DNA from: Patescibacteria group bacterium
Lineage (GTDB): Bacteria > Patescibacteriota > Patescibacteriia > UBA9934 > GWF2-40-263
NCBI GenBank assembly: GCA_018814025.1
Contig: JAHJAM010000027.1
Coordinates: 1 to 48,458 of the forward strand
Reading direction: 5' to 3'
DNA: 48,458 nucleotides
Part shown: positions 5,862 to 27,391 of the stretch, piece by piece
How positions within the stretch are numbered: position 1 is the first letter of the stretch
Layout of the letters: every line of letters begins with the position of its first letter
Notes under the pieces: model-generated
What the model saw: only the letters and a program-made list of their open reading frames with translations
The model's database searches: none
Told to the model about the DNA's origin: nothing
Made by a program: the position numbers and the translations under genes

Positions 5862-7302
5862 ATGAGTCAGTTTTTTTAAGCAGTCGGAAGACGCTTTGCA
5901 CGTGCTGGCGGCGAACCGAACGAGTGATAATTAACATTGAAATATAGACCAGGGCGCCGGTTGGCACGGCAAGAATAAATCCCACAATCGGCCGCGCATA
6001 GACAACCGCGGCGCTCATGCATAAACCGCTCAGGAGGATGGGCAGGATCATTTTGATCAGATCGAGAATGCGGTAGCCGGGTACAACGCGCGGGATATAA
6101 AGCAAGCCGGCCAAAAACATCAAACTGAAACTAACCAAAGCCGCGTAGACCGCCCCGCCTAGGCCGTGGGTTGGAATCAAGACAGCGTTCATAACCACGT
6201 TGACGAGCGTGGCGAATCCTAGGATAGCAGTTTTAACTGCTTGTTTGTCCACGGCATTTAGCAAAGAACCGATGGGAAAATCAAGAAAGATGGGAAAGAG
6301 CACTAATATCAAAAGTCGGAGCACAGGAATGGCTGAATCATATTCTGATCCGGCTAAACGCACGACGTCCGGAGCCAAAGACCAGATACCCAAAGCAATG
6401 GGCGTGGCCAGAATCATCATATACCACATGGCTTGGTCGAAGAGCTTGGGCAAGCGCGAGGGATTGGTTTTGGCCAACGAACTTAAACCCGGATAGAGCG
6501 CGGCAATGAAAGCCATGGGCAGGAATTGAAAGGCGTAAGTCAGTTTATAGGCGACCGCGTAAATCCCCACGGCCGTAGTGCTAATAAACAAAGAAAGCAG
6601 AATAGTGTCCGCGTAGGAAGATATTTTTGAAAATACGCCGGCCAGCCCGAAGGGAACGGTGATTTTTAGAAATTGGCCGGACATTTGGCGGCTGATCACC
6701 GGAATAAACGCTTGATAGCCCAGGACTCGACTGACTTGAAAGGCGGAAAAGAAGAGATTGAAAAAACTGCCGCAAATCAAGGCGACAATTAACAACGGGA
6801 GTGTGGGCTTAATCAACAGAACTGAAAGACCGATCCCGACAGTTACCAGTTGGCCGATGAAAATTCCCACTGATTCGTACTGCAATTTTTGGAAGCCGCG
6901 TAAAACTCCGTAGAATAATACGGAAAGCGCATCCGCGGTCAATGTCAGCGAAGACAATAAAACTAAAACCCGAACTTCCGAACTATAACTTAAGAGATAG
7001 GCGGCGAGGTTGGCACAGATGATGGACAAAATAATGAGCGGAATTTTTAGCCCGAGACCATGCTTTAACCAGGAACGAGCCGACTCAGTGTTTTTCGCGA
7101 TTTCCCGAATGACCACTTGAGCAATTCCGAAGTTTGAGATGACCATGAAAATCATAATGATTGACAGAGCCAAAAAATACGCGCCGGTATTCTCCGGTTT
7201 CATGATCCGAGCCACAAACAAAAAATAGACGAAGGCGATGATGCGCTGAGAAACGGTCGCGATCGTCAGATACATGGTATTTTTCGCCACGGACTGGGTC
7301 AT
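5830..7302 (-). CDS. Polysaccharide flippase (Wzx-like, MATE/MOP superfamily)
   Basis: A polytopic membrane protein of 490 residues with about 12-14 hydrophobic segments. The N-terminus (VAKNTMYLTIATVSQRI) and repeated internal plan are typical of RfbX/Wzx oligosaccharide-lipid flippases. It is first in the surface polysaccharide operon, ahead of three glycosyltransferases and a ligase-like protein, so its likely substrate is an undecaprenyl-linked oligosaccharide. The ATG is preceded by a promoter-like pair with a very short leader rather than a Shine-Dalgarno site. It is distinct from MurJ at 13269-14894, which has its own signature. Confidence 0.88.
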   Translation of the reverse strand: MTQSVAKNTMYLTIATVSQRIIAFVYFLFVARIMKPENTGAYFLALSIIMIFMVISNFGIAQVVIREIAKNTESARSWLKHGLGLKIPLIILSIICANLAAYLLSYSSEVRVLVLLSSLTLTADALSVLFYGVLRGFQKLQYESVGIFIGQLVTVGIGLSVLLIKPTLPLLIVALICGSFFNLFFSAFQVSRVLGYQAFIPVISRQMSGQFLKITVPFGLAGVFSKISSYADTILLSLFISTTAVGIYAVAYKLTYAFQFLPMAFIAALYPGLSSLAKTNPSRLPKLFDQAMWYMMILATPIALGIWSLAPDVVRLAGSEYDSAIPVLRLLILVLFPIFLDFPIGSLLNAVDKQAVKTAILGFATLVNVVMNAVLIPTHGLGGAVYAALVSFSLMFLAGLLYIPRVVPGYRILDLIKMILPILLSGLCMSAAVVYARPIVGFILAVPTGALVYISMLIITRSVRRQHVQSVFRLLKKTDSYENPTPAHDA

Positions 7303-7313
7303 AGAATATGCTT

Positions 7314-7342
7314 AGTTTACGAGATTTTCGACAATCTGTCTA
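7314..7342 (-). promoter_or_regulatory. Possible promoter of the surface polysaccharide operon
   Basis: On the minus strand TAGACA (7342-7337) is followed after 17 bp by TAAACT (7319-7314). The predicted start point lies about 4-5 nt before the flippase ATG, giving a near-leaderless mRNA. The match to consensus is moderate. Confidence 0.4.
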
Positions 7343-7372
7343 ATCAAAAACACCCGCTTGAGGCGGGTGTTT
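7343..7372 (-). terminator. Terminator of the ribosomal protein operon
   Basis: A 10-bp perfect stem (7348-7357 with 7363-7372, loop of 5) starts 4 bp after the rpsI stop and is followed on the minus strand by TTTTTGATT. This is a classic intrinsic terminator. Confidence 0.85.
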
Positions 7373-7376
7373 AAAA

Positions 7377-7907
7377 TTAACGCTTGGCCCATTGCGGTGA
7401 ACGGCGGGCGCTTTTTTTGCCGTATTTTTTGCGTTCTTTTTTACGCGCATCGCGGGTTAGGAAACCGGCTTGGCGCAAGGTAGTGCGAAAATCTTCATTG
7501 TGTTTAACTAAGGCCCGAGCGATACCGAGGCGAACTGAATCCGCCTGGCCGTGCATACCCCCACCCACAACGCGCACAGTCACATCAAATTGATTTTCAG
7601 TTCCGGTGGCGGCGAAGGGTGATAAGACGGATTGCTGTTGAAGACCGGAAGGAAAATATACTTTGAGATCCTTGTCATTAACAATCACCTGACCGCTGCC
7701 GTTAACAAACAACCGCACTTGAGCCGTGGCTTCTTTTCGACGTCCCAAAGCTGGGAGGTACTTGCCAGTAATCTCAATGGCCTTGATTTTAGCTTCCTTA
7801 GCCTTCACCGGTGCTTTAGACTTTGGCTCAGCGGCCTTGACGGTAGTTTTTCCGGCGGAGCCGGATCCGACTTTGCTGGATTTGGCAGTGACTTTCTTCT
7901 CGACCAT
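7377..7907 (-). CDS. rpsI: Small ribosomal subunit protein S9 with N-terminal extension
   Basis: The S9 core begins near residue 49 (YLPALGRRKEATAQVRLF) and contains VRVVGGGMHGQADSVRLGIA and the basic C-terminal tail ending SPQWAKR. The tail normally ends in KR and reaches the P-site tRNA. The protein is 176 residues where about 130 is usual. The extra 45 residues at the N-terminus are rich in Lys, Ala, Ser and Thr and look disordered. The start at 7907 lies 4 bp after the rplM stop; no better internal ATG exists. It is the last gene of the operon. Confidence 0.96.
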   Translation of the reverse strand: MVEKKVTAKSSKVGSGSAGKTTVKAAEPKSKAPVKAKEAKIKAIEITGKYLPALGRRKEATAQVRLFVNGSGQVIVNDKDLKVYFPSGLQQQSVLSPFAATGTENQFDVTVRVVGGGMHGQADSVRLGIARALVKHNEDFRTTLRQAGFLTRDARKKERKKYGKKSARRSPQWAKR

Positions 7908-21306: not shown

Positions 21307-21343
21307 TGGAAACGCCGATGGGGCGTAGATACAGTTGGCAAGT

Positions 21344-22027
21344 ATGAGGAAAGAAATTCAAATATATATTTTTTTGACTTTGATCGCTGGCCTTTTGATT
21401 GGCCAGCGTTTTGATTTGGGCTGGGCCGGCGGCCAAGGATATGATTACTCGGTGCCGATTCAAGTCGTCGAAGCGGTTGGAGTGGTTGAAGTTGATCGAG
21501 CGGGCATGGTGCATCAGGCCGCCACCGACGACCTGATCGCGCGCGGGGAAATCATTCGAACAGATGATGCATCTCGGGTCCTTTTAGAGATTGAAGGAAT
21601 TCATATCGGTTTGGATGAGCGAACCGATATGAAAGTCGAGGTTTTAGCCAACGATCAAATCCAATTGAAATTGATGCGCGGACGAATCATGGTCGATCGG
21701 CCGGCGACCGGTCGCGAGCTCTCGATCACCACCAACCAGACGCAAAGCAAGCTGACGGGCGGCGCGGCTTCATTCATCAATTATGATTTTAAAGAAATCG
21801 TGAGCATGATCCCCTTCAACAATTCAATTTTCATCAAAATCGGCGACAAGGAATTCATCACCCAAAAGCCGGTTGAGATTCATGAAGTTGAGCCGTTCGA
21901 GATTATGGAGACAACTTTCGATCTGAAACAGAATGCGGCCGCGGACTTTTATTATTGGTTCGAACAAGCGGCAAATCTTGAAAAAACTCTAGAAAATTCA
22001 GGGGTTATGGCGATAACAGTCGATTGA
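21344..22027 (+). CDS. FecR-like membrane-anchored protein
   Basis: A 227-residue protein with one N-terminal membrane anchor (IYIFLTLIAGLLIG). The extracytoplasmic part resembles the FecR domain: VVEVDRAGMVHQA, LIARGEIIRTDDASRVLLE, LKLMRGRIMVD. FecR domains sense signals or bind sugar polymers; here no sigma factor gene is adjacent, so a structural role is as likely as a regulatory one. It follows era by 37 bp, and its stop TGA lies within the -35 box of the next promoter. A TTG at 21335 is an alternative start, but the ATG at 21344 fits the anchor better. Confidence 0.7.
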   Translation: MRKEIQIYIFLTLIAGLLIGQRFDLGWAGGQGYDYSVPIQVVEAVGVVEVDRAGMVHQAATDDLIARGEIIRTDDASRVLLEIEGIHIGLDERTDMKVEVLANDQIQLKLMRGRIMVDRPATGRELSITTNQTQSKLTGGAASFINYDFKEIVSMIPFNNSIFIKIGDKEFITQKPVEIHEVEPFEIMETTFDLKQNAAADFYYWFEQAANLEKTLENSGVMAITVD

Positions 22028-22114: not shown

Positions 22115-23161
22115 ATGCCGCACGGCACTCACGTTCGCCACGTTCGTTCCCTGGCTGAAGCGCAAAAGGTTCTGGCCAATTTGCAGGACACTGTAGCAGC
22201 CGGGGAGTTAAGGCCGTTTGTGATCAGCCGAATCAAACGGAAGGAATTGTTGAGAAATTTGACGCAAGTTAAGTACGGTATTTTCGGCTTTGATCAGACC
22301 TTGCACAGCGCCAGCCAATGGACGGAGATCCGGCGCATCTTAGGCCCCAAGGCCCAGGCGCTCTGGGAAACGGACATCAGCAAGCGGCCGATCAACGGCC
22401 AGGCCGTGACCATCAGCAATCTGATCAAAGGGCAATACTTGTATATGTCACCGGCCGGCCAGCCTTTAGTGGAACAGGCCATGCTTCAGACCGAGTGGAC
22501 GGCCCAACTGATCCAGGCACTGAAAGAACAGCAGGTCACGCGCGAGCAAATTCGTTCGATCGCCCAATATTTGCCCATGCGGGCCGGGGCCGCGGAAATC
22601 CTTCGCCCGATGATGAAGGTCAGCGTCATCAGCTGGGGCCTGCGAGAAATCATCAATGCCTGGCTGGAAATCAACGGCATCGCCAACGCGTTCAAGCGCA
22701 ACAGCATCCGGGTGCTGGAACTAGGCGCCACCGAACTCCGGTTTGATGATCAGGAGCGGGTGACGGGCCATGTTTCGTCCTCATTGGTGGTCAACGCAAA
22801 TAAAAGCATCAAAGCTAACCGGTTCCTGGAAGGCTGCGGCGTGAGCGAAGGCTTGACCTTGGCCGTGGGCGATTCCATCTACGACATGGAAATGATGCCG
22901 TTCGTGCGAATTTCTGCGGAACAGGCGATCAGCGGCGTGAACGTTCTAATTATGTCGCCGGCGACCGCACTGGAAACTCTGAACGAGTTCGACCAACATC
23001 GAATGCCGCGCCTGTGGCAGCGAGTCACTTGCCTGCTGATCGCGGATGACTTTTATCCCCTGCTGGAACTGCAGAAAGAAGCGATCCAGCGCTACGACTC
23101 AATCGGGCAAAACAAGAAACAGATCCCCAAGGAACAAGTCAAAGAAATCTTCGGACTCTAG
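22115..23161 (+). CDS. HAD-superfamily-like protein with lost nucleophile (predicted pseudoenzyme)
   Basis: A 348-residue protein that matches its downstream neighbour along its length. Motif I reads FGFDQTL (57-63): the first Asp, the catalytic nucleophile of HAD phosphatases, is Gly58, while the second Asp (D60) and T62 remain. A Ser in SVISWG (170-175) fits motif II, and VGDSIYDME (251-259) is an intact motif IV. It therefore keeps the fold and metal-site acids but should not form the aspartyl-phosphate. It has its own promoter, an AGGAGG site 7 bp from the ATG, and a terminator. A binding or regulatory role for its paralogue is possible. Confidence 0.8.
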   Translation: MPHGTHVRHVRSLAEAQKVLANLQDTVAAGELRPFVISRIKRKELLRNLTQVKYGIFGFDQTLHSASQWTEIRRILGPKAQALWETDISKRPINGQAVTISNLIKGQYLYMSPAGQPLVEQAMLQTEWTAQLIQALKEQQVTREQIRSIAQYLPMRAGAAEILRPMMKVSVISWGLREIINAWLEINGIANAFKRNSIRVLELGATELRFDDQERVTGHVSSSLVVNANKSIKANRFLEGCGVSEGLTLAVGDSIYDMEMMPFVRISAEQAISGVNVLIMSPATALETLNEFDQHRMPRLWQRVTCLLIADDFYPLLELQKEAIQRYDSIGQNKKQIPKEQVKEIFGL

Positions 23162-23170
23162 ACAGCTCTG

Positions 23171-23197
23171 ATCCGCCAGGCAACTGGCGGATTTTTA
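23171..23197 (+). terminator. Intrinsic terminator
   Basis: A 9-bp perfect stem (23171-23179 with 23184-23192, loop GCAA) followed by TTTTAT. It separates the two HAD-like genes. Confidence 0.88.
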
Positions 23198-23225
23198 TTG
23201 ACAGATGCAGAATTTTTGATAATCT
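23198..23225 (+). promoter_or_regulatory. Promoter of the second HAD-like gene
   Basis: TTGACA (23198-23203), 16-bp spacer, TAATCT (23220-23225), directly after the preceding terminator. Confidence 0.7.
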
Positions 23226-23249
23226 GGCCGCGAGGACAAGGAGGTTGTG

Positions 23250-24203
23250 ATGTCGGAAATCGTTCATGTGAGTTCTTTGCCAGACGCTCTAGCCAAGTCA
23301 GCCGAGCGAATCGATAACGGCCACACCCAGCCGTTTTTGCTCTCCTGCATTCCGCCCGAGGAGCTGATCCAGCGCCTGGCCGAAGTCAGGCACGGCATCT
23401 TCGACTTCGATGACACCTTGGCGACCGGCAACCAGCACGAGGAACTTCGCAAGTTCATGCCCGAAGAAACATCGGCTTTCGATCTTGAATACTTGTACTG
23501 GATACTCGGAGCGGATAAAACCTTTCGCGGCGTGCGGCCGCAAGAATTCTGGTGGTTCGATCCTGATAACCACAAGTCCATCCAGACGGCCGTGATCGAG
23601 GCCTTTTTTGTGGGCATGAACGTGGGCACGATGCGAGCCGAGCACATCGACCAACAAATCGTGGAGCAAGTCAGCGCCGCGATGGTCGCGCGCGAGGGCG
23701 TGCCCGAGCTGTTCGCTCGCCTGCAGCATACCTGCATCATCACCTACGGCTACGAGGACGTGGTGAAGATGTGGGCCGAGCGATCGAGAATCAAGACACA
23801 TGTTTCCGGCATCCGTTTGGCTTATGACCAGAACGAAAAAGTCGCGGGCGCTTATCCGGGCAGTCTGATCGTGGGCCAGACCAAGGGCTTTGCAGCCGAA
23901 GAGTTCCGCACCAAGTTCGGCATCAACCACCACGGCATCCTGACCATCGGGGACCGGCCGTTTGACATCGAGATGTTTTACGACGATCCCTCGGCCGTGA
24001 ACGCGCTGATCTTTTCCCCGAACAAGGCCAAGGAGCGCTTCGATTCCTTTGACATTCCGGCTAACCGCGAACGCTGGAACCGCGTGACCTGCGTGCTGGT
24101 CTCAGACAGCCTGCAACCGCTCGTGGACATGCTGCCAAACAGCCCGGCTGACGACTGGCCGGAAAATGAGGTCACGACGCCGGATCGTCCCCCAACGTCG
24201 TAA
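23250..24203 (+). CDS. HAD-superfamily hydrolase-like protein (intact motif I)
   Basis: 317 residues, paralogous to the gene before it. Motif I is intact, FDFDDTL (51-57, with nucleophile D52 and acid D54). Motif II is likely T165 in CIITYG, motif III K212 and motif IV IGDRPFDIEMF (233-243). It is thus a plausible phosphatase or phosphotransferase with unknown substrate. The two proteins share the N-terminal lead-in (VSSLPDALAKS versus VRSLAEAQKVL) and the end (RWNRVTCVLVSDSLQPLVDM versus LWQRVTCLLIADDFYPLLEL). AAGGAGG lies 6 bp before the ATG; a GTG three bases upstream is less likely. Confidence 0.83.
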   Translation: MSEIVHVSSLPDALAKSAERIDNGHTQPFLLSCIPPEELIQRLAEVRHGIFDFDDTLATGNQHEELRKFMPEETSAFDLEYLYWILGADKTFRGVRPQEFWWFDPDNHKSIQTAVIEAFFVGMNVGTMRAEHIDQQIVEQVSAAMVAREGVPELFARLQHTCIITYGYEDVVKMWAERSRIKTHVSGIRLAYDQNEKVAGAYPGSLIVGQTKGFAAEEFRTKFGINHHGILTIGDRPFDIEMFYDDPSAVNALIFSPNKAKERFDSFDIPANRERWNRVTCVLVSDSLQPLVDMLPNSPADDWPENEVTTPDRPPTS

Positions 24204-24297: not shown

Positions 24298-25350
24298 TTA
24301 TTCAATAATGCCGCCGCCGATCATTTCCTCGCCATCATAGAAGACGATTGATTGACCGGCAGTGACCGCGCGCTGGGAATCTTTAAATTTAACTTTAGCC
24401 GTATCCGCGATCGATTCAATGACACAAGCCTGCAAGGGTTGTCGGTAGCGGATGCGGGCTTGGCAATTGAAAGGAGTTTCGGGCTGATTAAACCAGTTTA
24501 AATCAGTGGCGGTGAGTTCTTGCCTAAACAAGGCCGGATGCGACTCACTGCCCACGACTAATTCGTTGGTATCCGGTCGTTTTTCCACCACATAATATGG
24601 AATGCCAGTGCCGCCGATGTTTAAGCCTTGGCGTTGGCCAATGGTGTAAAAGGTAAGGCCTTTGTGCTCACCAACCACTTCCCCGCTGGTGGTGATGATG
24701 CGGCCGAGATTTTCCGGAATGCGAGTTTTGAGAAACTCGTTCACATCAATCTCACCGATAAAGCAAATGCCCGTGGAATCTTTTTTATCGGCCGTGGGCA
24801 AATCAAGCTCTTTGGCTTTTTGACGAACCTCAGGTTTAGTTAATTCACCAACTGGAAATAAGACGCGCGGTAAAACTTCTGGCGGAATGGCCCAGAGAAA
24901 GTATGTTTGATCTTTGTTCTTGTCTTTGCCAGCGAGAATTTTGCCATCTTTGATGCGAGCGTAATGGCCGGTGGCGACGAAATCACAACCGAGTTTATCA
25001 GCTTCTTTCATGAACAGATCAAACTTAACAAACTTGTTGCACATCACGTCGGGATTGGGCGTGCGGCCGGCTTCGAATTCTTTAAACATGTAATCCACCA
25101 CGTCGCGGCGGTATTCTTTTTCAAAATCAAAAGTGTGAAGCGGGATGCCTAAACGAGCCGCGACTTTAGTGGCATCGCGGCGATCCTCGCGCCAAGTACA
25201 GCCAGCACCCTCGCAATCAATATCTTCAGACCAGTTTTTCATGAACCCGCCAATCACTTCATATCCTTGTTCCAAAAGCAAAGCCGCGGTCACGGATGAA
25301 TCCACGCCGCCGGACATACCGACTAAGACTTTTGGTTTGTTGTTGCTCAT
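24298..25350 (-). CDS. mnmA: tRNA-specific 2-thiouridylase MnmA
   Basis: Places sulfur on U34 of tRNA(Lys/Glu/Gln). 350 residues. The PP-loop SGGVDSS (13-19) binds ATP, and catalytic cysteines C104 (NPDVMCNKFVKF) and C196 (STGICFIGE) are both present. The C-terminal beta barrel includes YVVEKRPDTNELVVG. The ATG at 25350 gives the usual start before the PP-loop; a longer frame to 25383 overlaps the promoter and is rejected. Confidence 0.96.
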   Translation of the reverse strand: MSNNKPKVLVGMSGGVDSSVTAALLLEQGYEVIGGFMKNWSEDIDCEGAGCTWREDRRDATKVAARLGIPLHTFDFEKEYRRDVVDYMFKEFEAGRTPNPDVMCNKFVKFDLFMKEADKLGCDFVATGHYARIKDGKILAGKDKNKDQTYFLWAIPPEVLPRVLFPVGELTKPEVRQKAKELDLPTADKKDSTGICFIGEIDVNEFLKTRIPENLGRIITTSGEVVGEHKGLTFYTIGQRQGLNIGGTGIPYYVVEKRPDTNELVVGSESHPALFRQELTATDLNWFNQPETPFNCQARIRYRQPLQACVIESIADTAKVKFKDSQRAVTAGQSIVFYDGEEMIGGGIIE

Positions 25351-25358
25351 AACGATCG

Positions 25359-25387
25359 AGCATACCAGGATATCCATTATCAATCAA
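25359..25387 (-). promoter_or_regulatory. Promoter of mnmA, near-leaderless
   Basis: TTGATT (25387-25382), 17-bp spacer, TATGCT (25364-25359). The -10 ends 8 bp before the ATG, so the mRNA leader is expected to be about 0-2 nt. Confidence 0.55.
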
Positions 25388-26911: not shown

Positions 26912-27391
26912 TCAGAAGGCTTCGGGCGAGTATTCCTCGAGCCTGAGACCGCGGATGTCCGGCCAAAGCAGAAACATTTGCCGATTGCGCCAAATGCGGA
27001 ACTGGAAGAAGCTGCCTTCCTGATCCAGCTTCACAAACCGGTATGGTCCATGCATTTCGTCGGCGAAAATCACGTGCTTTTCGCGGCCGGCGTTATTGAA
27101 GGCGACGTAAACCAGGCAATCCTCGCCCAGGTAATGGCCGGTGAAGTGAATGACGGGTTGGCGGATTTCCCAGCCCATGTACAGCACCCAGAACAGGCGC
27201 TTGATGGACGGGATGGCCATGACCTCGGGGTTGATCAGGTAGCGGTTCAAGTACGCCAGTGTGGTGGCCTGATTGATGATCCCGATCTCGGTCAGGTCCT
27301 GGCGAATCTGAGCCAGGCGCGAGAAGTCCGGGAAAATAGCCGGCCGTGGCGGACGGCGGGTGAAAATCGACAAAGAACTGACCGATCCCAT
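26912..27391 (-). CDS. Hypothetical protein
   Basis: A 159-residue soluble protein I do not recognise. It has an aromatic-rich middle (LFWVLYMGWEIRQPVIHF) and a C-terminal half with alternating hydrophobic residues (FFQFRIWRNRQMFLLWPDI), suggesting a mainly beta domain. There is no signal peptide and no catalytic signature. A GAGG site precedes the ATG. It is the last of three ribosome-binding-site-led genes (27621-27761, 27480-27608, this one), which probably share the promoter at 27804-27832 and end at the terminator 26872-26899. Confidence 0.6.
   Translation of the reverse strand: MGSVSSLSIFTRRPPRPAIFPDFSRLAQIRQDLTEIGIINQATTLAYLNRYLINPEVMAIPSIKRLFWVLYMGWEIRQPVIHFTGHYLGEDCLVYVAFNNAGREKHVIFADEMHGPYRFVKLDQEGSFFQFRIWRNRQMFLLWPDIRGLRLEEYSPEAF

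Follow-up and report, generated by a model that had tools for sequence, protein, structure and literature searches.

In HAD phosphatases the first aspartate of motif I is the nucleophile that becomes aspartyl-phosphate; their chemistry needs it, and it also contributes to Mg2+ binding. A two-step mechanism has been stated for the HAD superfamily (PMC3498132). Two described pseudoenzymes come closest to the protein analysed here, P1. The trypanosome AdoMetDC prozyme (PMC5201418) is likewise a retained paralogue without catalysis, but it has another fold and its complex with its partner is shown by structure, whereas P1 and its neighbour P2 are known from sequence. The pseudophosphatase PHLPP2 (PMC12002173) resembles P1 as a phosphatase-family protein with a diverged active site and no detectable activity, but it belongs to the animal metal-dependent protein phosphatase family and not to the HAD proteins. 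The literature searched held no direct precedent for a HAD pseudoenzyme.

The window, the whole stretch of 48,458 nucleotides that was analysed, is contig 38 of a Patescibacteria draft genome of 978 kb in 62 contigs. It carries two homologous HAD proteins, P1 and P2, as tandem same-strand paralogues (Table 1), and P1 has glycine at the position of the nucleophile; it is probably an inactive enzyme that is retained for some different purpose, or one only recently dead. Streamlined genomes of ~1 Mb rarely seem to retain spare genes, hence a full-length, apparently separately transcribed, nucleophile-less paralogue makes a reasonable bacterial HAD pseudoenzyme candidate beside an active copy. Loss of catalysis after duplication, probable here in a poorly known family, is an ordinary event.

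The tandem pair and its transcription signals

Table 1. Positions in the window of the paralogues, their fixed neighbours and the putative signals around them.
Feature	Position	Strand	Length or basis
FecR-like protein gene, fixed upstream neighbour of the HAD site	21335-22027	+	PF04773, synteny
Promoter-like site of P1, TTGACT-17-TATACT, at the fecR stop codon	22024-22052	+	consensus scan
P1, HAD paralogue, Gly58 replacing the nucleophile Asp	22115-23161	+	348 aa
Gly58 codon GGC (Asp codon GAC with one A-to-G transition)	22286-22288	+	P1 sequence
Intrinsic terminator after P1	23170-23193	+	terminator scan
Promoter-like site of P2, TTGACA-16-TAATCT, just past the terminator stem	23198-23225	+	sequence, family comparison
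P2, HAD paralogue, motif I intact (IFDFDDTL)	23250-24203	+	317 aa
Intrinsic terminator after P2	24223-24251	+	terminator scan
mnmA (tRNA 2-thiouridylase), fixed downstream neighbour	24298-25383	-	PF03054, PF20259, PF20258

BLASTP aligns P1 with P2 at 130 bits (E 1e-39, 25% identity over 321 columns), and the alignment extends over the lead-in, the core and the C-terminal end, as an earlier note on this DNA had claimed. No third copy was found in the source genome. GC by codon position is 0.57/0.38/0.72 in P1 and 0.59/0.39/0.76 in P2, with third-position values of 0.49–0.63 in most neighbouring genes; a 159-aa open reading frame at 26912-27391 has a third-position GC of 0.77, near the values of the pair. 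The FecR-like gene matches PF04773 at E 5.5e-4, short of the Pfam curated cut-off, and its syntenic homologues in relatives either precede the HAD gene or adjoin mnmA with nothing between.

The promoter-like site of P1 agrees with the consensus at 10 of 12 positions. That of P2 has a weak -10 and a spacer of 16, and was not listed by the consensus scan, which is weak by itself (two promoter-like sites against 1.4 expected). TTGAC does, however, occur in the 100 bp that precede each of the 15 family genes examined (P1, P2 and the truncated G029b, described below, included) against 8.2% of 100-bp stretches, with the reservation that the 15 genes are related and not independent draws, while the sequence between and around TTGAC differs greatly. 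As TTGAC precedes every family gene examined, separate promoters for P1 and P2 are credible. Both genes also have AGGAGG-type ribosome binding sites and terminators, hence each looks like its own transcription unit, and the full set of signals that the earlier note assigned to each gene was found again. TAGT-type letters often follow TTGAC after ~17 bases in the 15 genes, a possible promoter type of the clade.

Active-site motifs and the kind of HAD protein

Motif I reads GIFGFDQTL in P1 and GIFDFDDTL in P2, where Asp52 is the nucleophile. P1 retains the second motif I acid (D60), the motif II serine (SVISWG), the motif III lysine (K230) and the motif IV acids (GDSIYD; D253 and D257), which bears out the earlier reading of Gly58 and of the acids kept around it, coordinates included. 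Both proteins thus have the motif II Ser/Thr, the motif III Lys and the motif IV acids of the superfamily, and the motif I DxD with its nucleophile is found in P2 but not in P1 (GFDQT).

The set of homologues was drawn from 96 related genomes and, by means of the family profile, from the order (73 genomes) and the class (381 genomes). Scans of a genome-contig collection with both proteins, and of viral contigs with the family alignment, returned no relatives. The earlier note had proposed an alignment with the HAD family; among the 27 proteins aligned, the nucleophile Asp is present in P2, in all 24 other full-length relatives and in the truncated G029b, leaving P1 as the only member with Gly58. 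The next motif I residue but two, Q61 in P1, is Gly in most closer relatives, with D, E and F also seen in active-looking ones. No orthologue of P1 from its own genus, and none closer than ~30% identity, was found among the genomes compared. Since Gly in place of Asp leaves no aspartyl-phosphate intermediate, P1 is most likely dead as a phosphatase. Distant HAD homologues in one genus (L102/G034, L057/G041, L060/G028) have another motif IV, EDTPRxLxRM-like and not GDSxxD, and share the absence of its Gly and of its last acid; their motif I is intact (SDNDGT, ADNDGS).

Both proteins score above the PF12710 (HAD) cut-off of 27 bits, P1 with 27.7 and P2 with 36.4. The best solved relative of the family profile is 7zee, a 7-methylguanosine phosphate-specific 5'-nucleotidase (cN-III; E 1.2e-8, profile positions 115–246 of 296), and the phosphoserine phosphatase 3p96 is matched at E 8.8e-8. 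Cytosolic 5'-nucleotidase III/UMPH-1 (PF05822; 7zee, 2bdu, 2cn1) is similar in length, at ~300 aa, but the profile match spans about half the protein; three relatives exceed the PF05822 cut-off of 23.7 bits (28.5, 24.9 and 24.1), others fall below it, and P1 and P2 gave no match to this model. Phosphoserine phosphatase and other HAD-IB proteins (TIGR01488, TIGR00338; 3p96, 1f5s) are matched by the family, with 13 of 14 members weakly matching HAD-IB models, but P1 and P2 stay far under the curated cut-offs (26 bits against 45 for TIGR01488, at most 28.7 against 144 for TIGR00338). Our best guess for P2 is a small-metabolite phosphatase, perhaps a 5'-nucleotidase. None of the defence-system models matches P1 or P2, and structure predictions from two-sequence alignments reached pLDDT 34 and 39.

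Genomic site, family history and other tandem pairs

In ~13 genomes of the taxonomic family the FecR-like gene and mnmA flank the HAD gene, which is found downstream of era; this counts a few where one neighbour is hidden by a contig end or set apart by an intervening gene. In 18 other genomes of the family the FecR-like gene and mnmA are present with no HAD homologue between them, and several genus groups are mixed, with the gene in some genomes and not in others. The HAD proteins are mostly 25–57% identical between genera, compared with ~60–70% for the window's era and 59–75% for its mnmA against relatives. Judged from these genomes, the HAD family is lineage-restricted, fast-evolving and dispensable, and because its site is fixed, gain, duplication and loss can readily be traced. 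The FecR-like protein of the window is found in nearly all genomes examined, yet at ~27–38% identity.

The best tree separates P1 from P2 weakly, and trees holding the two together as sisters gave AU p values of 0.37 and 0.30, compared with 0.09 when P1 was grouped with G029b, so that neither grouping was rejected. The best explanation takes P1 and P2 as an old, strongly diverged tandem pair. No hidden second copies were found in the gaps beside the HAD gene of three relatives (G007, G016, G014). An open reading frame with HGIYDFDD between fecR and mnmA in another genome (G021) was rejected as a HAD gene, as a 370-aa open frame runs across it on the other strand and there is no profile match.

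A second tandem HAD pair was detected between the FecR-like gene and mnmA in genome G029 (L008:517-1092 and 1211-2125). As with P1 and P2, there are two copies at the same site; TTGAC precedes and a terminator-like hairpin follows each of them, and the upstream copy (G029b) also keeps a ribosome binding site. Unlike P1, this 191-aa protein has lost the cap and retains the first motif I Asp, with Asn as the second acid (LSDLNGC). Its closest match is the downstream partner in the pair (44.9% over 78 residues), and a genome of the same genus (G018) has a single HAD copy; the pair is apparently independent of P1 and P2. The upstream copy seems degenerate through a lesion other than that of P1, and looks like decay. 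A tandem pair of distant homologues also occurs in another family of the order (G067; L101:5440-6450 and 6528-7511), with the nucleophile Asp in both copies (FDFDGT, SDYDDT).

Constraint on P1 and its candidate role

Conserved columns were defined from twelve closer relatives at thresholds of 99, 90 and 80%. P1 keeps 11/13, 22/33 and 35/56 of them respectively, P2 keeps 12/13, 23/33 and 32/56, and the truncated G029b keeps 7/13 and 16/33. Both full-length paralogues are equally distant from the core family (mean identity 25% for P1 and 26% for P2), and the tree gives them end branches of ~1.9 and ~1.6 changes per column. A P1 drifting neutrally along so long a branch would have lost the conserved columns; kept much as in P2, they show that the protein was under constraint through most of its past. 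The P1 frame is open over 348 codons with no frameshift or stop, and its codon use exceeds random synonymous use (z 8.6), resembling that of a normal gene and of P2. Intact frame, normal codon use and conserved columns together support the view that P1 is not a decayed remnant. The conserved columns speak for the long branch of P1 and not for when the Asp disappeared, possibly not long ago.

Our favoured reading, which we hold at about even odds from these sequence comparisons, is an old tandem pair in which P2 works and P1 is a maintained pseudoenzyme acting by ligand binding or protein contact. P2 would be a Mg2+-dependent phosphatase whose Asp52 attacks the substrate. In P1 the aspartyl-phosphate route would be closed by Gly58, but since the motif II Ser, the motif III Lys and the motif IV acids remain, the protein could still bind a phosphorylated ligand, presumably with reduced Mg2+ affinity, and act through such binding or through protein contact and scaffolding. 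Regulation of P2 by P1, or pairing with it, is possible, and a regulatory interpretation is plausible. The earlier note had suggested such a role: its description of a nucleophile-less, separately transcribed, undecayed paralogue held up, but a second genome with a full-length nucleophile-less partner was not found among those compared. This, and the fact that most relatives have one copy and many none, disfavours a stable P1–P2 pair. Also counting against a pseudoenzyme are the dispensability of the family, lost in many genomes, and the restriction of Gly58 to P1 among the relatives aligned.

The main rival is recent inactivation, which we consider rather unlikely and rank below a maintained pseudoenzyme. 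P1 would have been active until lately, losing its nucleophile by one transition, with decay now starting and no pseudoenzyme role. GGC and GAC indeed differ by a single A-to-G change, the gene is dispensable (absent from its site in the 18 genomes above), and because the G029 pair has a decaying upstream copy, already truncated and carrying Asn for the second acid of motif I, P1 may share its path. The lack of any frameshift or stop and the intact promoter and terminator argue against such decay, as does Q61, which also departs from the usual Gly and suggests more than one step; this last argument is tempered by the variability of the position in active-looking relatives.

It is improbable that the Gly codon is an artefact of assembly or consensus calling, or stems from a minority strain. 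A single base is involved, the genome is fragmented and this contig is the sole source of the species in the analysis, but P1 is otherwise clean, with an uninterrupted frame and normal codon use. Distinctly doubtful, too, is a reading drawn jointly from this genome, where the nucleophile is gone, and G029, where the cap and the second Asp are: tandem duplication would recur at the site, and the upstream copy would come to serve the downstream one as a partner or decoy without catalysis. Very unlikely is that P1 remains an enzyme through different chemistry or a non-canonical nucleophile: the other active-site acids, the Ser and the Lys are kept, but established HAD chemistry requires the motif I Asp, FGFDQT offers no obvious neighbouring acid as substitute, and the structure model of P1 (pLDDT 34) is unusable.
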